Origin: Halomicronema sp. CCY15110
Lineage (GTDB): Bacteria; Cyanobacteriota; Cyanobacteriia; Phormidesmidales; Phormidesmidaceae
Direction: 5' to 3'
Assembly: GCF_016888165.1 (NCBI RefSeq)
Contig: NZ_JACSWC010000415.1
Location: 1-64,000 of the forward strand
DNA length: 64,000 bases
Position numbers and translations under genes: made by a program. Positions 18,065 through 51,344 of the stretch are shown here, piece by piece (the stretch's first letter is position 1; each line of letters opens with the position of its first letter). The notes beneath the pieces were generated by a model, which was not told the origin of the DNA, did not search any database, and saw only the letters and a list, made by a program, of their open reading frames with translations.

Positions 18065-19702
18065 TCAAGGTTGGTTTGAGCTACCTTCCCAGGTCTCCCA
18101 GATGGCGGCTTGAAAAGCTTGCCACTCAGTCAGGGTGGTGGGTGCCGAGGGGGTGTCGCGCTGTAGTAAAAAGATACCTGGAGCCGCCGCGACGATCCCG
18201 TAGCGATCGCCCTCCAGTAGCCCTTGCACGATGGGCAGCCATTCCAGCAGGCGATCGCGAGATCCCGAAAACGCTCCCGCGTACTGCTGCAACTGCCAAA
18301 AGTCCACCAGTACATAGTCCACCTCGGAGGTCGCTCCGACATCATCCCGAAACTGGAGCGCTGGAAAGCGCAACACCGCTCGCCGTCCCGACACGTGGGG
18401 CAGCAAGTTATCCGTGGCGGTGACGCTCGCCTCGGCGGGAATTTGGGGGAGCAGCGATCGCACCGTGTTGGCGTGGCCCCACTGCTTCGTCAACGTTAGA
18501 TGCACCCACGGATCCACCGAATCGGGAATGATGAACGACCACGTGCGCGACGGATTGAGCGTGAAGGTAAAGAGCAAACTGAGACAGAGGCACGCCGCCC
18601 ACAAACTGCGAGTGCGTCGGGACAACTTTTGCCCATGATGGCTCCACCACACCACCGCCCCGTAAAACATGCCCGGCACCACCATCACGGTATAGCGGAG
18701 CTGCATCGACAGCGCGATATGAGTATCCGATCGCAACAGCAACGTGGCTAACGGCGGCGCAGTGCAAAGCCAAGCAGCGGGAGAAATCGCAGGCACAAAC
18801 AGCAGCGGCAACCAGTGCCCCAACATGAACCGCACGGTATTGCCCAACGGCATAAAGAGATCGACCAGCACGCGATCGGGCCGCCGCAGAAACGCCACCA
18901 ATAAATCCACCGTGGAGGCGTCGCCCGTGACATAGTTAGCGTAAGAAAAGGCCAAAAAGTTCGTGCCCACCTCCTCTGAAAACAGGGGCATTAGCACCGT
19001 CGTGGTGATCACGAGATGGGCCACACTCGCCACACACAAGCCACTGCCAAACCAGAGATGCCGCCGACTCAGCAAAAAATATAGCCCAAAGCCAAACAAG
19101 ATGATGCCGACATCTTCGCGGCAGAGGAAAACGAGCCCCGTGGCAGCGATCGCCCACCCCCACCGTTGGCGCTCCACGGCTAGCAGCAGCAAAAATATCC
19201 CCAGCGGAATCTGGGCAAAGTCATGGAAATTCGCCAGATGCGGCGCAATGACGGCTTGCGCACAAAAATAGCCCAACGTGATCCACAGTGATACCTGCTC
19301 AGACAATCGCTGTCGTGCCAACCAGTACAGCGCCACTCCCCCGGCAGTCACCAACGTCACCTGCAACACCAGCAGCGTCGCTGAGTGGGGAAACAGATAA
19401 TAGAGCGGTAGCCACAGTAGATGGATCGGGGTGAAATGCTGGCCTAACCGCTGATATGTCACATCCGGAACTTGCCCGCCAAAGAGCACCGCCGCCGACT
19501 CGCCCGATGAGAGCGTGCCCTGAAAAAATTGACCGTGGGTGCCGTTCCAGAAAATCTGGTTAAAAATGCCCTGATCATGGGTAGAAAACGACGGGTACAT
19601 GGCCCAGTGACGGTTGAGAATGCTGAGCACCATCAGTAACCAAAAGATACCGGCGGCCCATAGCAACCGTCGATGATTCGTTATCCAGTCCAAAGCACGC
19701 AT
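18065..19702 (-). CDS. DUF2079 polytopic membrane protein
   Basis: A 545-aa integral membrane protein with about 10 hydrophobic helices. The N-terminal YPSFSTHDQGIFNQIFWNGTHG and the GQHFTPIHLLWLPLYYLFP segment are characteristic of DUF2079 proteins, which are distantly related to membrane glycosyltransferases of the GT-C type. The C-terminal region (about 430-530) is soluble. Its VTATDNLLPHVSGRRAVLRFP and YVLVDFWQL segments are the conserved extramembrane portion of the family. The substrate is unknown; a role in cell-envelope glycosylation is plausible. ATG at 19702. It appears monocistronic. Confidence 0.85.
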   Translation of the reverse strand: MRALDWITNHRRLLWAAGIFWLLMVLSILNRHWAMYPSFSTHDQGIFNQIFWNGTHGQFFQGTLSSGESAAVLFGGQVPDVTYQRLGQHFTPIHLLWLPLYYLFPHSATLLVLQVTLVTAGGVALYWLARQRLSEQVSLWITLGYFCAQAVIAPHLANFHDFAQIPLGIFLLLLAVERQRWGWAIAATGLVFLCREDVGIILFGFGLYFLLSRRHLWFGSGLCVASVAHLVITTTVLMPLFSEEVGTNFLAFSYANYVTGDASTVDLLVAFLRRPDRVLVDLFMPLGNTVRFMLGHWLPLLFVPAISPAAWLCTAPPLATLLLRSDTHIALSMQLRYTVMVVPGMFYGAVVWWSHHGQKLSRRTRSLWAACLCLSLLFTFTLNPSRTWSFIIPDSVDPWVHLTLTKQWGHANTVRSLLPQIPAEASVTATDNLLPHVSGRRAVLRFPALQFRDDVGATSEVDYVLVDFWQLQQYAGAFSGSRDRLLEWLPIVQGLLEGDRYGIVAAAPGIFLLQRDTPSAPTTLTEWQAFQAAIWETWEGSSNQP

Positions 19703-19918
19703 ACAGTTCCAGCACGTAACAGGGCTTCCCTATTCTCACTGGCACTGGTGCGGAAAATCAAAAATATCGGCCAGTCCCCAACCTCGCCGGCAAACGCTGG
19801 CTGTTTGCTGAGCCCATCTCATCGGATCCAGTCGCTGCCGCTGCCCCTGCTACCCATCACCCTGGCATAGGCTGCTATGAACTCGGAGGTGGGGTGGTTA
19901 GTGCCGCGTGGCGATCGC

Positions 19919-21322
19919 TCATGGCGATCCGATGACCTTTTTGAAGAAGTCGAGCTTACCCGCATAGGGGGCATAGCGCCAGGCGAGATCAAACCAAAGC
20001 GGCTTTTTGAGCACGCTTTTCATGTGCGAAAAGGTCTCGAAACTGGTTTTGCCGTGGTAGGCCCCGATGCCGCTGTCGCCCACACCGCCAAACGGCAGCC
20101 CCCAAATCGCCACTTGCAAAAAGACATCGTTAAGGCAGACACCCCCCGATGAAGTCGTTCCGAGCACTTGCTGACGCAGCGCCTCATTTTTGGTGAACAG
20201 ATACAGGGCTAGCGGTTTGGGGCGGGCGTTGATTTGGGCGATCGCCTCCTCAATATTGCGGTAGGTCAGCACCGGCAGAATCGGGCCAAAAATTTCTTCC
20301 TGCATGATGGGACTGTCCCACGTCACCGCAGCCAAGATGGTGGGGGCCAGGTAGCGGTCATCGCGATTGGTTTCACCGCCGAGATCGGGCGACTCATCAG
20401 CCATGAGCGTGGTGAGGCGATCAAATTGGCGATCGCTCACAATTCTTGCCAGGTCAGGACTCTGGGCCGGATCATCGCCAAAAAATGCCTGGACGGTGTC
20501 TTTGAGCGCCGCCAAAAATTCCGCTTTGATGGATTCGTGGATCAGTAAATAATCGGGCGCGATGCACGTTTGCCCCGCATTCACAAATTTGCCCCACACA
20601 ATCCGTTTGGCGGCGACGGCGATATTAACGTCTTGATCCACAATGCAGGGACTTTTGCCGCCCAGCTCCAACGTCACCGGGGTCAGGTGTTGAGCGGCGG
20701 CGGCCATCACAATCTGGCCGATGCGAGTGCCGCCCGTGAAGAAAATGTGGTCAAACTTTTGAGCCAGCAGCGCCTGCGCCGTTTCTGCGCCTCCTTCCAT
20801 CACGGCAATATATTCAGGAGGAAACGTGTCGCGGACTAAATCAGCCACGACTTTGGACATCGCCGGGGCAATTTCTGAGGGTTTGATCAGCGCACAGTTG
20901 CCTGCCGCGATCGCCCCAATCAACGGCGAAATCACGAGTTGAAAAGGGTAATTCCACGGGCCAATGATGAGCACCACGCCCAGGGGATCAGGCTGCACCC
21001 AGGCTGATCCCGGCAGTTGCGTCAATGGCAGGCCCACCCGTCGTGGCTTGGCCCACTTTTTCAACCGCTTGAGCACATATTTCAGTTCGTCCAGCACCCC
21101 AATTTCAAAATAGCTCTCAAACTCGGGCCGACCTAAATCGGCAGTCACGGCGGCAACGATGTCATCCTGGCGCTCAATAATGGCCGTTTGTAACCGTTTG
21201 AGCTGGGTCAGCCGAAACTCAACGGGCTGTGTTGCCCCCGTGGCAAAGTAGGCTCGCTGCGCGTGGAGCAGCGCCGCTGCCTGGGACTCGATAGATTGTT
21301 CCGGCGTAGAGAGGGCCGTCAT
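19919..21322 (-). CDS. aldehyde dehydrogenase, class 3/fatty-aldehyde type
   Basis: A 467-aa NAD(P)-dependent aldehyde dehydrogenase. The catalytic Cys253 lies in NAGQTCIAPDY, the general base Glu219 in LELGGKSP, the GPWNYPF substrate-channel motif at 121-127, and the nucleotide-loop FTGGTRIG at 195-202. The short length, GPWNYP and QTCIAPDY are typical of class 3 ALDH. In cyanobacteria such enzymes oxidise long-chain aldehydes or apocarotenals to acids. The C-terminal hydrophobic/basic end may aid membrane association. ATG at 21322. A methyltransferase gene ends 30 bp upstream on the same strand, so co-transcription is possible. Confidence 0.93.
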   Translation of the reverse strand: MTALSTPEQSIESQAAALLHAQRAYFATGATQPVEFRLTQLKRLQTAIIERQDDIVAAVTADLGRPEFESYFEIGVLDELKYVLKRLKKWAKPRRVGLPLTQLPGSAWVQPDPLGVVLIIGPWNYPFQLVISPLIGAIAAGNCALIKPSEIAPAMSKVVADLVRDTFPPEYIAVMEGGAETAQALLAQKFDHIFFTGGTRIGQIVMAAAAQHLTPVTLELGGKSPCIVDQDVNIAVAAKRIVWGKFVNAGQTCIAPDYLLIHESIKAEFLAALKDTVQAFFGDDPAQSPDLARIVSDRQFDRLTTLMADESPDLGGETNRDDRYLAPTILAAVTWDSPIMQEEIFGPILPVLTYRNIEEAIAQINARPKPLALYLFTKNEALRQQVLGTTSSGGVCLNDVFLQVAIWGLPFGGVGDSGIGAYHGKTSFETFSHMKSVLKKPLWFDLAWRYAPYAGKLDFFKKVIGSP

Positions 21323-44943: not shown

Positions 44944-46290
44944 TCACATCATCGGCCTTAAAAATCGAACAAAAACGAATAGCGCCACTGTAACTAGCTG
45001 TAGGGCCGTAATCGGCAGACTGTATTGCAAAAAGGTCTGAAACGAGATGCGCTGACCATGCTGCTCGGCAACGCCAGCCGCCACGATGTTAGACGAGGCA
45101 CCAATGAGTGTGCCATTGCCGCCTAACGTCGCGCCAAACATCATGGCGTAAAAGAGCGGCAGTACCTCAAGGGGCAGACTCCCGGCAAAATTGGGGTCGA
45201 GAATATCGGGCGTCGCTAACCCCACGTTGACGAGATATTCCTTGAGCAGGGGCACCATGGCAACCACGAGGGGAATGTTGGGCACCAAGCTCGACAGTCC
45301 GCCCACCAGCAACAACAACAGAATGGAGCCTAGGGCGATGTTGCGTCCCAGAATGAGCGCTAGTACGCCGGAAGCGGCACTCAGCACACCTGTTTTTTCC
45401 AGGCTGCCGATCAGCACAAACACGCTCATAAAAAACAGCAGGGTGCTCCAGTCTAAATCTCGCAGAATGTTTTGGATTGTATCGATGCGGCTGTGGTGGG
45501 TAATGAGCAAGCATAAGGCCGCCCCGGTGAGGGCTCCGGTGGCGGGCGAAATCGGCACGGGTAAGGTTTCGCCCACGACGAAGAGGGTTAGCACTAGCGC
45601 CACAATGATGCCCCCCAAAATCAACATGCGGGGATGGTTGACGCGGGGCTGGGGCAGTTGCGCTAAGTTATCCAGCTGCTTGTGCCAAATGCTGGGGAAC
45701 AGGACAGGCAGCAGCACCACGATCGCCCCCACCGCGATCGCGCCTCCCAAACTCAGCGATTTTAGATAGTCCAAAAAGCTGATGTTGATGGCATCGCCGA
45801 CGATAAAGGTTGCCGGATCGCCCACCAGGGTCAGCAGTCCGGCACTGTTGGCGGCAAACACGAGCAAAATCAGCAGCGGCACAAAGTTCACCCCCAGTTC
45901 CGTCGCAATGGGAGGCAATAGGGGAGCCAGCAGCATGACGGTGGTGGCGTTGGGCAACACCGCGCAAATGGGGGTGGTGATGACCACAATGCCCAGCAGC
46001 AAGCGCTTGCCCTGGCCGCCCGACATGTGCACTATTTGCGTAGCCAAATATTCGAAGATACCTGTCGGTTCGAAGGCGCGCACCATCACCATGACCCCAA
46101 AAAAGAGGGCCAGGGTGGCGTAGCTTTGAGCAATGTAGTCAACGGCTTCGGTGAGGGTGAGCACGTTGAGAAAGAGCAACAGCATAGCGCCCAGCATGGC
46201 GGCGATCGTCAGCTGCAAGCGCTCGGTCATGATGCAGACGAGGACGCCGACAAAGACGCTGAGGGATGAAACAGCGGCAAAGCTTCCCAT
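44944..46290 (-). CDS. SLC13/ArsB-NhaD-type ion transporter
   Basis: A 448-aa polytopic membrane protein with about 11-12 TM helices of the ion-transporter superfamily (CitM/ArsB/NhaD-like). Two inverted halves carry related re-entrant motifs, VLPNATTVMLLAPLLPP with FAANSAGLLTLVGDPATFIVG in the first, and LVPNIPLVVAMVPLL with ATLGGNGTLIGASSNIVAAG in the second. Substrates in the family include Na+/H+, arsenite, sulfate and dicarboxylates; none can be fixed here. The start ATG at 46290 has AGGAG upstream. It is the sole gene downstream of a cyclic-di-AMP riboswitch, which implies a role in ion or osmolyte homeostasis. Confidence 0.85.
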   Translation of the reverse strand: MGSFAAVSSLSVFVGVLVCIMTERLQLTIAAMLGAMLLLFLNVLTLTEAVDYIAQSYATLALFFGVMVMVRAFEPTGIFEYLATQIVHMSGGQGKRLLLGIVVITTPICAVLPNATTVMLLAPLLPPIATELGVNFVPLLILLVFAANSAGLLTLVGDPATFIVGDAINISFLDYLKSLSLGGAIAVGAIVVLLPVLFPSIWHKQLDNLAQLPQPRVNHPRMLILGGIIVALVLTLFVVGETLPVPISPATGALTGAALCLLITHHSRIDTIQNILRDLDWSTLLFFMSVFVLIGSLEKTGVLSAASGVLALILGRNIALGSILLLLLVGGLSSLVPNIPLVVAMVPLLKEYLVNVGLATPDILDPNFAGSLPLEVLPLFYAMMFGATLGGNGTLIGASSNIVAAGVAEQHGQRISFQTFLQYSLPITALQLVTVALFVFVRFLRPMM

Positions 46291-46294
46291 GGGA

Positions 46295-46336
46295 ATCTCC
46301 TGGATAGTGAGACGATTGAGCCAGATACCAGGAGAT
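46295..46336 (-). promoter_or_regulatory. ribosome-site-sequestering hairpin of the riboswitch
   Basis: In the mRNA, ATCTCCTGG (46336-46328) is perfectly complementary to CCAGGAGAT (46303-46295), which contains the AGGAG ribosome site before the ATG at 46290. The same TCTCCT can instead pair with AGGAGA at 46349-46344, at the 3' end of the aptamer, giving two exclusive states. Read as a translational expression platform. Confidence 0.75.
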
Positions 46337-46341
46337 CACAC

Positions 46342-46463
46342 GTCTCCTCTCAAGGCCGACGAAGTTAGCTGACGGGCTGGGCGTGAGAGTTCGCCCCCTT
46401 GCAACTGCAAGGTTTGCCCCAAAGATGGGTCCTCCGCTTTGGTCATAGACCAAACTAGGCCGA
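46342..46463 (-). ncRNA. cyclic di-AMP riboswitch aptamer (ydaO/yuaA)
   Basis: The minus strand reads in order: a 7-bp hairpin TTTGGTC-TAT-GACCAAA; GCGGAGGACCCA; TTTGGGGCAAA; a hairpin CCTTGC-AGTT-GCAAGG; GGGCGAA; a second stem to CGCCC; then CCCGTCAGCTAACTTCG and GAGAGGAGA. These blocks, in this order and spacing, match the ydaO consensus, especially the invariant CAGCTAAC segment and the GGAGGACCC/GGGG half. These RNAs bind two cyclic di-AMP molecules and usually shut off expression. Downstream is the ion transporter gene. Confidence 0.9.
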
Positions 46464-46651
46464 TGGCTCAGATAAATTTCTCCGACAATAGCACTAATTT
46501 TTAGAGCTGACAATTAGGCGGCATGATAACTCGCGAATCAGCGCGATCGCTCTTGCTGCCCCGCTGTGACGATTCCTTGTCCAGAGGGTTGTCTTCTTTG
46601 TTGATGGATAGTGAGTGAGGGGCGATCGCGCGTTTAGTCCCTCAGAGCCAC

Positions 46652-47749
46652 TCAAATATAGGTTTGTAAGAGCCGAATCATGGCCCCGACCGAGGCCAGG
46701 GAGGCGGTTTCATTGGGGGTATGGTATTCCGTAGTAGGCACTTGCAGGGTAGTGCCACTGATGGCTCCGTCGGTGGCGGCAGTTAAGCGACCCATTTCGG
46801 TGCGGCCCAGAGAGTAGGGTTTGGTGCGGGTGCGGTTTTGGGCGGTGATGTAATCGTCTTTGTAGCTGTAGGGGATGTCAAGCTGGGTGCAGCGATCGGC
46901 GAGTTCTTGGGTGATGCCTGTGGCAAAGTCAGCGCTGGCATCCTTGCGACGCAAGGTGACTAACTGCTGATCGGCGGCGGCGCGATCGTGGTAAGGGCTG
47001 GTATCGAGGGCGACTAATCGCTGGGTAGTGAGTTGCTGCCGCTGAAACCAGGACAGGGCATAGCGCCAACTGCGACCCGATTCTTCTTGGGCGGTGAAGA
47101 GGGCCGTACCCGCAAAGCCACAGCGAAATAGAAAGAGGATGATCGCGGCACTCAGCACGTTATCCAACTGGGCGGAGATGTAGCCATCGTTAAATTGCAG
47201 GCGATCGAGAAAGGCGATCGGGGTTCCCGGTTGCAGGTGCTCTAGGCCATCGACTTCAAAGATCAAGTTTTTGCGCTCTGGGCAAATATAGGAGCGGGTG
47301 ATGTGTCCCTGGCCGATGTAGGTGCCAGTGTAGGGGAGATGAGCCTGCACCCGTTGCCCTTGAAAGCGATGCTCAATGGTGTTGAGCATTTGTTCAGAGA
47401 CCGAATCCCCCGTGAGTTCGCTTTGGTTGCCCGCGATAAACGCTGCGTATTGAAACTCGTTGGGGCCGGTGCAGAGGAGGCCGTGGCGATCGATGTGGGC
47501 CGACAGCATCAGGTCGTGGGGGCGATCGCCCTGGGCGACTAAGACGCCGTGATAGTAGGTAACCTCAGCCCCAACTTCTTCTAGCTCGCGCCGCAGCACC
47601 CGAAAGAAGGAGTCTTCGCTCCCCACTACGGAGGGTTCTCGAATCAGCAGTTGCAGAATTTCCAACAATTCCGTCAGCTCGGCGACGCCTTCGGGTAGCG
47701 AGGCATTTTGGGCCACCAGTTGCTCGACAACCATATTCAAAGGGCTCAT
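46652..47749 (-). CDS. M42/M20-like metallopeptidase
   Basis: A 365-aa co-catalytic zinc aminopeptidase of the M42 glutamyl-aminopeptidase type. Metal ligands visible are His85 with Asp87 (SAHIDRHG), bridging Asp196 (SAQLDN), catalytic Glu222 and ligand Glu223 (TAQEESG), Asp249 (ALDTSPY), and a C-terminal His in TEYHTPNE. All key residues are present. ATG at 47749; the internal ATG six codons on is an alternative. The decayed insertion sequence lies immediately upstream, so the native promoter may be displaced. Confidence 0.9.
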   Translation of the reverse strand: MSPLNMVVEQLVAQNASLPEGVAELTELLEILQLLIREPSVVGSEDSFFRVLRRELEEVGAEVTYYHGVLVAQGDRPHDLMLSAHIDRHGLLCTGPNEFQYAAFIAGNQSELTGDSVSEQMLNTIEHRFQGQRVQAHLPYTGTYIGQGHITRSYICPERKNLIFEVDGLEHLQPGTPIAFLDRLQFNDGYISAQLDNVLSAAIILFLFRCGFAGTALFTAQEESGRSWRYALSWFQRQQLTTQRLVALDTSPYHDRAAADQQLVTLRRKDASADFATGITQELADRCTQLDIPYSYKDDYITAQNRTRTKPYSLGRTEMGRLTAATDGAISGTTLQVPTTEYHTPNETASLASVGAMIRLLQTYI

Positions 47750-47922: not shown

Positions 47923-49206
47923 ATGGTGGAATTGCTGGCCGCTATTAATCATCCGTTCAGATCGGAAACCTGTATTGAGCGTCTTCGGGTGATGATGTCA
48001 GGTACTGCTCTAGAACTAACCGACCCTCTGAGAGGGATTTTCCAAGACACTGCCAAATGTCTCAAAGGCACTGAGCGCCTTCAATTTATGGCGCAAGTCG
48101 TCCAAGCCTTAGGCCCAGGTGGTCAAGCGTAAGCGGAACGGGAATTGGGATGGAACCGAGGCACGATTCGCAAAGGTTGGCAGGAACTGGCCCACAGTCC
48201 CATCCGTGATGCCTTTGAGCAAACGGGGACGGAAACCGACCGAGGCCCGTTTACCGCAGTTGCTGGATGACATCCGGGCCATTGCGGAACCGCAAACTCA
48301 GGCCGACCCGTCCTTAACCAGTCAGCGACTCTATACCCGTCTCAGTGCCGCCGCCGTGCGCCGTCAACTGATCGCTCAAAACGGCTACCAGGATGCTGAG
48401 TTACCCACGGAGGAAGTGATCCGGCAACGGTTGAATCAGTTAGGTTATCGTCTCCAGCGCGTGGCTAAAACCAAACCTCAGAAAGTGATTGCCGAAACCG
48501 AGGCGATTTTTGCGGCAGTCAATCGAGTCAATCAGGCCCCCGATGAGGATGAACACACCTTGCGGCTCTCGATAGATGCTAAAGCGACGGTCAAAATCGG
48601 CGATTATGACCGAGGGGGGAAAAATCGCGTGCTCATCCCCGCGACTGACCATGATTTCCAGCCCACTGACACACTGACCCCCTTCGGCATTTTTCTGCCG
48701 ACGACGCATGAGCTTTGGCTCAGCTTCGTGAGATCCAAACTGACCGCCGATGCCATCGTGGATTGCTTGGAAAATTGGTGCAACAGGTCAAAGCGCGATT
48801 GCCCCACATCCGTCGGTGGGTGATGAATGCTGACAATGGTCCTGAAAATCACTCCCGACGCACCCAATTGATGGCGCGATTAGTGGCGCTGGCTCAACGA
48901 GAGCAACTCACCATTCAATTGGTCTACTATCCGCCCTATCACAGCAAATATAATCCTGTGGAGCGCACCTTTGGTTGGCTCGAACAGCATTGGCGCGGCA
49001 GCCTCTTGGACTCAGTCGAAACCGTTATCGGCTTTGCTGAATCGCTGACTTTTAAAGGGCATCATCCCACCGTTAATCTGGTTGCACAGACTTATCATAA
49101 CGGCGTCAAACTCACCCAAAAGGCCATGAGGCAACTCGAACAGAAACTGCGCCGATTGCCAGATTTAGAAAAGTGGTTTGTCGAAATCCCTCCGATGCCT
49201 GTCTAG
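47923..49206 (+). pseudogene. ISAzo13-type transposase, disrupted
   Basis: A DDE transposase of the ISAzo13 kind broken into pieces. Frame one starts at the ATG at 47923 and meets a TAA at 48130-48132 followed by in-frame AERELGWNRGTIRKG. A frameshift near 48210 leads into the frame with RGRKPTEARLPQLL up to LSIDAKATVKIG and DHDFQPTDTLTPFGIFLP. A second shift near 48770-48780 leads to NADNGPENHSRRTQLMARL, YYPPYHSKYNPVER and the C-terminus at 49206. At least three lesions make it inactive without trans help. Weakly matching ends are near 47814 and 49240, but no clean terminal repeats were found. It lies between the peptidase and WGR genes. Confidence 0.88.
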
Positions 49207-49250: not shown

Positions 49251-51344
49251 TTAATCGCACACATGATAAAACTCGACTTCACTAAAATTGCGATCGCTGA
49301 GTTGCTCATCGGGAATGAAAAAGAGAAAAGATTCGTCAGAGTCTGGATAGCCCAACTCCAGTAGCAGTCTGCCATTCGTAGACGCGGCGATTTCATCAGT
49401 GTCGGCATGAAGGTCCACATATCCACCCAGTTTATTGCCTCGAATGCGGGTTTCGCTGTCATGCAGGTAATCCCACAGCCATTCGTCAAAGGTTCTACAC
49501 AGTTGTTTAAGTTCTTCAGGACGACTAAACTCTTCGCCGTACCGTGACTCCCAAAACAAATCTCGACTCGGAGAGAAGGCAATTGGATAAACTTCAGGAT
49601 AAAACTCCCGGATCGTCGTTTCGCTTTCAATAAAGCTGAAATCTGTCATTAAGTCACTGGGATTGGTCGATATCTCTGGAAAATAGAGAACCCGATATTT
49701 GCCAGGGGTTGCGCTTGCATCAGCGGGTTCAAACCCCAGATAAAATTGTAAAATGCCCGCTTGAGGAAAATCAAACCCAGCAATCGGTGGAACTTCAGCA
49801 CAGTTAATTTGCATCACTAGAGGCATCGCTTTACCCGTCCCTGGATCAATGGGATACTCTGCAGTCTTAGGGAAATAAGGGTTGCCGCCAATCTTACTCC
49901 GCCATACCGTCAGCGGGTCGCCAGGGCCTCTGTCGTAATAGTCCATGTTGCCAACTTTTTCTCCAACCTGAATTTGGACATAAGGCACTAAATTTTGTTG
50001 GAGGAACGATCGCAACGGCTCAAACTGAGATGGCAAATCCACCAAAAACGGCGGCATATCGGTTGTTGCTTGGGGTACTGGTGGGCGTTGGTCCGGAGGG
50101 GGCACTGGAGTAACGACCGCTGGACTTGAACGAGAAATCTGTTTTTCAACCGTTGGTGCTCCTAATACTCTGAACTGTTGCAGGTGTAAGCCAGTGGTGT
50201 CGTAGTTTAGGTGCAACGTATCCGGTGGGCCAGATGGTTCGAGAGGGTAGGAGAACGGTTGATTATTCAAATAAAAAACGATGTCTCTCGCTGGGGTTAG
50301 CACCAGAACATAGTGAAAGATTTGACCTGACGCAATTGCACTAGGAAGTTCGAGCCGTTCTTCCCGCTTTACGCTCCCGACAGCAGACCATTGCATCATT
50401 TGTCTTTGATTAGGTTGAAAGTCAAACCCATAGATGTAAACTGTCTCTCGACCCTGGTTTGCCGATAACCGAATGGTAAAACCGCCACACGCCAGATCGT
50501 GAAAGGTGCCAACCATCTGAATACATGTGAGCGATCGCGGTAAAGGGATGCTGTAGTTGCAATACTGCAACTCGCGGAAACTAAACCCTAGCTGATGCTT
50601 GACGGCAGGAAGAAGGTTTCGCGCAACGCGAGGCGGATAGAGCGGAGACTGATTCAAAAGCTCAATGCTGGGGACAGGAATGGTTGGATCAATCGCTGGC
50701 AGTGGCGGCGCAGCGACTGGTGGACTGGTTGGCTCCTGACTCAGGCTGATTTCACTGTCCGTTGGAGATTCGGAAGCAGGGCGATCGCGGCTGGGTTCCT
50801 GCCATTGTCCTTTGTGATACTCCTCCCACCTGGCGTCGGTTCCATCGCGATCCCATCGGACGAGCATGGCTACTGCCGTCAGTCGAACCTTCACCCGGCG
50901 GGACTGGTCGTACAGCTCAACGTACTCTTCGGTTCGGGTCGTCTCCCGAAACCGCCACGACTGGCTCTGGCGACGAGTCTCCTCGTTCACCTCTTCCCAG
51001 CCACCCTGCCCATCCGCAGCGAACCACGCGCTTCCGTAAACCCAGTAGTGCCGTGGATCGGTAAGCAACTGCTCTGACGAGATTGGGCGATCGTCTCCCG
51101 ATGAAACTTGCACATAGCCTTTTCTCAACTTTTCATTGATTTTCTTTGTTGCTTCGGCTTGCGCTTTTTCAGTCGTTTCATAAGCCGTGCTGGACAACTG
51201 TCCTGACGTGCCAATCCGACCGTAGCGGATCGTCACCTCTGCCTGAGCTACAGTCACTTCATAGAATTTGTGAGATTGGCCGTCTGACAACTCTAAATAA
51301 ACCGTTTCTGAATGGGGGCGATTACTACTGGCATCAATACTCAT
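49251..51344 (-). CDS. WGR domain / DUF1963 (YwqG-like) protein
   Basis: A 697-aa multidomain protein. Residues about 1-85 are a WGR domain (HKFYEVTVAQAEVTIRYGRIGTSGQ), the module named for its Trp-Gly-Arg motif in PARPs and MolR-like proteins. About 90-170 is a WEEY-type region. Around 235-395 lies a beta-rich segment with a lectin/laminin-G feel (YIYGFDFQPNQ, VFYLNNQPF). The C-terminal third (about 430-697) is a DUF1963/YwqG domain (WRSKIGGNPYFP, LVMQINCAEVPP, AGILQFYLG). No enzyme motif. The end lies 45 bp beyond the transposase remnant. ATG at 51344. Confidence 0.8.
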   Translation of the reverse strand: MSIDASSNRPHSETVYLELSDGQSHKFYEVTVAQAEVTIRYGRIGTSGQLSSTAYETTEKAQAEATKKINEKLRKGYVQVSSGDDRPISSEQLLTDPRHYWVYGSAWFAADGQGGWEEVNEETRRQSQSWRFRETTRTEEYVELYDQSRRVKVRLTAVAMLVRWDRDGTDARWEEYHKGQWQEPSRDRPASESPTDSEISLSQEPTSPPVAAPPLPAIDPTIPVPSIELLNQSPLYPPRVARNLLPAVKHQLGFSFRELQYCNYSIPLPRSLTCIQMVGTFHDLACGGFTIRLSANQGRETVYIYGFDFQPNQRQMMQWSAVGSVKREERLELPSAIASGQIFHYVLVLTPARDIVFYLNNQPFSYPLEPSGPPDTLHLNYDTTGLHLQQFRVLGAPTVEKQISRSSPAVVTPVPPPDQRPPVPQATTDMPPFLVDLPSQFEPLRSFLQQNLVPYVQIQVGEKVGNMDYYDRGPGDPLTVWRSKIGGNPYFPKTAEYPIDPGTGKAMPLVMQINCAEVPPIAGFDFPQAGILQFYLGFEPADASATPGKYRVLYFPEISTNPSDLMTDFSFIESETTIREFYPEVYPIAFSPSRDLFWESRYGEEFSRPEELKQLCRTFDEWLWDYLHDSETRIRGNKLGGYVDLHADTDEIAASTNGRLLLELGYPDSDESFLFFIPDEQLSDRNFSEVEFYHVCD

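Follow-up and report, generated by a model that had tools for sequence, protein, structure and literature searches.

An intact ydaO-type cyclic di-AMP riboswitch, probably acting on translation, before an slr0753-type transporter gene in a cyanobacterium

A minus-strand leader in a 64,000-nucleotide stretch of DNA from Halomicronema sp. CCY15110 (hereafter, the window) carries a ydaO-type cyclic di-AMP (c-di-AMP) aptamer that, with a probability we put at roughly 0.7, controls the translation of the slr0753-type transporter gene behind it as an OFF switch, in which the choice between folds is probably kinetic. The element is a real, intact, and conserved regulatory RNA, of a known kind and before a known target; the part that may be new is its lineage-specific platform, in which a segment of the leader can hide the Shine-Dalgarno (SD) sequence. 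As a candidate translational c-di-AMP switch, the leader is compact and open to testing.

The leader carries a complete c-di-AMP aptamer

The earlier note had recognized a ydaO/yuaA aptamer from its conserved blocks, and had named a search with the Rfam ydaO-yuaA covariance model as the check. All of these blocks (GCGGAGGACCCA, GGGGCAAA, CAGCTAAC, and GAGAGGA) are found in the leader, and the search returned a full-length match to RF00379 (model positions 1-134 of 134) at window 46339-46471, on the minus strand, as are all leader features described below. The match scored 73.3 bits (E = 4e-15) against a gathering score of 38 bits, and no other was found in the 6.1-Mb genome. The span first proposed, 46295-46463, captured the element, but missed 8 nt at the aptamer's 5' end.

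The pseudoknot typical of the class is also present, formed between a loop strand (CTCTCA, 46384-46389) and a strand of the 3' tail (TGAGAG, 46347-46352). Across 92 distinct aptamers from throughout the phylum this helix covaries, appearing for instance as CTCTCA/TGAGAG, CCTTCCA/TGGAAGG, or TCTTCC/GGAAGA, and its mean length was 7.33 bp, compared to a maximum of 6.79 bp in 200 swaps. In this aptamer class, the 3' tail is held by ligand binding. The window RNA presumably binds c-di-AMP as well; a diadenylate cyclase gene, a mere prerequisite for such binding, is found in the same genome. That gene (G000:C202, 3507-3869) is located about 15 kb from a gene encoding an SbtA-type bicarbonate transporter (19029-20156).

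Directly upstream of the aptamer is a promoter-like site (46513-46485), in which a -35-like hexamer (TTGTCA, 46508-46513) and a -10-like hexamer (TATTGT, 46485-46490) are separated by 17 nt, and the second is preceded by an extended TG. This was the sole promoter-like site in 46200-46700, where 0.1 would be expected in shuffled sequence, and a similar arrangement is visible 5' of the aptamer in relatives.

A helix that can hide the SD is conserved in the nearest relatives

The aptamer ends 48 nt before the start codon (ATG, 46290-46288). As the earlier note had proposed, an anti-SD arm, ATCTCCTGG (46328-46336), is the perfect complement of CCAGGAGAT (46295-46303), which adjoins the start codon and contains the SD sequence AGGAG (46297-46301). 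Each leader was scored by the length of the longest perfect helix that its spacer can form with the SD region, with dinucleotide shuffles and orthologous genes in which no aptamer was detected serving as background. Taken by itself, the window leader has a probability of 0.013 of forming a 9-bp helix by chance (20,000 shuffles of its 32-nt spacer), a modest value that reflects the abundance of TC and CT in that spacer. Conservation of the helix in relatives makes a chance origin very unlikely.

Among the eight leaders of the nearest clade, seven keep a helix of 7-9 bp, with an anti-SD arm of the form (T)CTCCTGG (either TCTCCTGG or CTCCTGG), even though their spacers (47-80 nt) vary in both length and sequence. 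At 9 bp, the window leader ties with those of G170 and G419 for the longest helix of all cyanobacterial c-di-AMP leaders scored, the window's genome (G000) and G170 being close relatives that do not constitute independent cases. The Petrachloros leader (L091) has 8 bp, and the remaining leaders have 8, 8, and 7 bp; the exception is G395, with a perfect anti-SD match of only 4 bp. By comparison, the helix reached at most 5 bp in all 24 orthologous transporter genes without a detected aptamer. Compensatory changes are scarce, because the SD itself limits variation in the helix. An anti-SD arm that is both complementary to the SD and co-conserved with the aptamer is the mark of a translational riboswitch, and both properties were found here. 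The related genomes therefore support a putative SD-hiding platform whose conservation appears to be limited to a small set of relatives.

The target is a transporter resembling slr0753

The gene behind the leader (44944-46290, minus strand) encodes a 448-aa member of the CitMHS/ArsB superfamily (PF03600, 205.6 bits; PF02040, 53.5 bits) with distant similarity to the ArsB and VcINDY structures, bearing out the earlier assignment to the SLC13/ArsB-NhaD-type transporters. Identity as an ArsB arsenite pump was rejected, the protein scoring 102 bits where the NCBIfam ArsB cut-off is 457; its scores are likewise far below the NCBIfam cut-offs for MamN (86 of 500 bits) and DASS (82 of 199 bits).

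According to a review (PMC10117731, which cites Mantovani et al. 2022 and Kobayashi et al. 2006), slr0753 of Synechocystis is under the control of a c-di-AMP riboswitch and encodes a putative chloride exporter; suppressor mutations of a mutant that requires chloride fall in this gene (PMC9896922). Four genomes of one Synechocystis-type genus each have, as their sole close match to the window transporter (P0001), an orthologue that is 67% identical, and in three of them (G076, G080, and G093) it is located downstream of the genome's single RF00379 match. The genus was assigned by way of SbtA, which in G076 is very close, and in G080 similar, to Synechocystis Slr1512 (PDB chain). From this comparison of sequences, we infer that the window gene is an slr0753 orthologue. 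The tie between such a transporter and c-di-AMP in a cyanobacterium, which the earlier note had put forward, therefore holds but is not new, having been reported for slr0753. Calling the substrate unknown was too strong, since the slr0753 product has already been termed a putative chloride efflux transporter (PMC10117731); the window protein probably transports chloride or another anion.

At least one c-di-AMP aptamer was found in 93 of 386 genomes drawn across the phylum. As judged by Pfam, the first gene downstream of 163 aptamers in 110 genomes was an ABC permease in 56 cases, a Usp-family gene in 46, and a transporter of the window type in 42, which places this anion-transporter family among the three main targets of the switch in cyanobacteria. 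The aptamer stands directly before transporter orthologues in neighbouring genera, and upstream of the transporter in many named cyanobacteria; in two of the 58 entries with a transporter in the fetched flank, the order is reversed. The order Nostocales often has the arrangement aptamer-Usp-transporter, in which the Usp-like gene encodes about 200 aa (L092, L106, L109, L112, L115-L118, L123, L126, L130, L137, L139, L143, and L162), a layout that suggests a c-di-AMP-controlled Usp-transporter operon.

Several further arrangements were observed. Three c-di-AMP aptamers lie on one strand within 6.6 kb in G415 (C19, 100868-107454; L034 and L053), and several other genomes have two aptamers about 4 kb apart. 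In G286 (C1, 3623785-3624302; L242), the aptamer is followed by only a C-terminal fragment of the transporter (residues 361-444), which gives the impression of a gene cut short behind its switch; elsewhere in that genome is a complete copy, for which no aptamer was detected. Within the window itself, an ISAzo13-type transposase (48119-49206, plus strand) is divided between two overlapping reading frames, matching PF07592 positions 1-174 and 174-308, by a frameshift that could be programmed or a sign of decay, and a 697-aa protein (49251-51344, minus strand) joins a WGR domain to DUF1963.

Predicted folds and direction of the switch

The tail segment AGGAGACG (46341-46348) can pair with either (i) the anti-SD arm, through AGGAGA (46343-46348) and TCTCCT (46330-46335), or (ii) CGTCTC (46309-46314), further downstream. 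The earlier note had predicted two exclusive folds, with the first of these pairings as the alternative to the SD helix. Both complementarities exist; as the main competitor, however, the hairpin between tail and anti-SD arm was rejected, reaching alone only -7.1 kcal/mol against -13.2 for the SD helix. Of eight relatives inspected for this pairing, two (G400 and G397) have only a weak form of it or none. The best predicted competitor is instead AGGAGACG paired with CGTCTC, behind the anti-SD arm, in a fold of -19.7 kcal/mol compared to -22.2 for the SD-hidden one.

In equilibrium folding of the whole free leader, which like all our folding calculations leaves out pseudoknots and ligand, the SD was predicted to be hidden even without ligand (probability of being unpaired, 0.01), and locking the tail left the cost of freeing the SD essentially unchanged (5.4 to 5.2 kcal/mol). 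As the unlocked leader hides the SD and locking has no effect, equilibrium folding shows no switch for the window leader. An SD that is hidden with or without the aptamer tail is what one would predict if the helix dampened expression constitutively, or responded to temperature, while the aptamer contributed little or was decaying. We consider this explanation unlikely: the aptamer is intact and high-scoring, and in the leaders compared the helix was found only where the aptamer occurs.

Very unlikely, too, is a transcriptional switch of the B. subtilis ydaO/kimA kind, in which bound c-di-AMP brings about premature termination. A simple scan, whose results partly overlap chance, placed terminator-like hairpins after 59 of 162 cyanobacterial aptamers, with many of these in the Usp and ABC-permease groups, and in Synechocystis the leader before slr0753 accumulates as an RNA of its own, Ncr1680 (PMC5386190). 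In the window leader, however, no hairpin with a U run was found after the aptamer, in agreement with the earlier reading, and a terminator platform was rejected for it; further, the SD helix occupies the mere 48 nt that separate the aptamer from the start codon.

We favour a switch that acts on translation, as the earlier note had predicted, for which modelling makes the OFF direction plausible. With the tail locked, the predicted cost of freeing the SD (in kcal/mol) rose from 5.5 to 10.0 in G391, from 1.8 to 5.1 in G395, from 5.8 to 9.0 in G397, and from 7.6 to 9.2 in L091; the rise was small in G170 (4.6 to 5.5) and slight in G419, and there was none in G400. Because locking favours the OFF fold in most relatives, the OFF direction is favoured. 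That the ligand-bound aptamer should instead favour an open SD is highly improbable, since, although the fold pairing AGGAGACG with CGTCTC shares only two nucleotides with the pseudoknot, tail locking acts in the opposite sense in most relatives and OFF is the direction described for members of the class.

The proposed OFF switch would operate as follows. At high c-di-AMP, the aptamer would fold and its 3' tail would be held in the known pseudoknot; with the tail so held, ATCTCCTGG would pair with CCAGGAGAT, and the ribosome would be blocked. At low c-di-AMP, the tail would compete, taking as its partner either the anti-SD arm or the segment immediately after that arm, and the SD could be open long enough for initiation. 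The decision between the folds would probably be made co-transcriptionally, such a kinetic choice being the most likely way for the switch to work.

Comparison with known systems

In cyanobacteria, c-di-AMP affects osmotic, salt, and night-time physiology. The regulatory step acting on the same gene, whether termination or translation, may differ by lineage, and results obtained in Synechocystis therefore need not carry over. We tentatively suggest, at somewhat less than even odds, that the same slr0753-type target and aptamer are combined with different platforms in different lineages, an SD-hiding one only in the Leptolyngbya-like clade and another, sometimes terminator-like, elsewhere; this would constitute platform exchange at a fixed target, and the first mapped SD-hiding c-di-AMP platform in cyanobacteria. 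No description of such a platform in cyanobacteria was found in the literature searched, the primary papers on the class lying outside that search.

The window protein has its superfamily in common with ArsB and with the DASS transporters (VcINDY), but scores far under the NCBIfam cut-offs for both. The prototype of the riboswitch class, B. subtilis ydaO/kimA, is an OFF switch that uses a transcription terminator platform and targets a potassium importer; it shares with the window leader the aptamer class and an ion-transporter target, and differs in its terminator and in the potassium importer that it controls. In Synechocystis, as in the window, the same aptamer family precedes an orthologous transporter; the spacers there, however, are 185-323 nt long and without CTCCTGG/CCAGGAG, whereas that of the window is 48 nt and includes the SD-hiding helix. 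The accumulation of Ncr1680 (PMC5386190) is consistent with a different platform in Synechocystis but is not proof of one. The nlpC riboswitch of C. glutamicum, which belongs to the same aptamer class, has been reported to be translational and OFF (PMC9960051), as we propose here, although it is found in an actinobacterium and controls a cell-wall peptidase gene.
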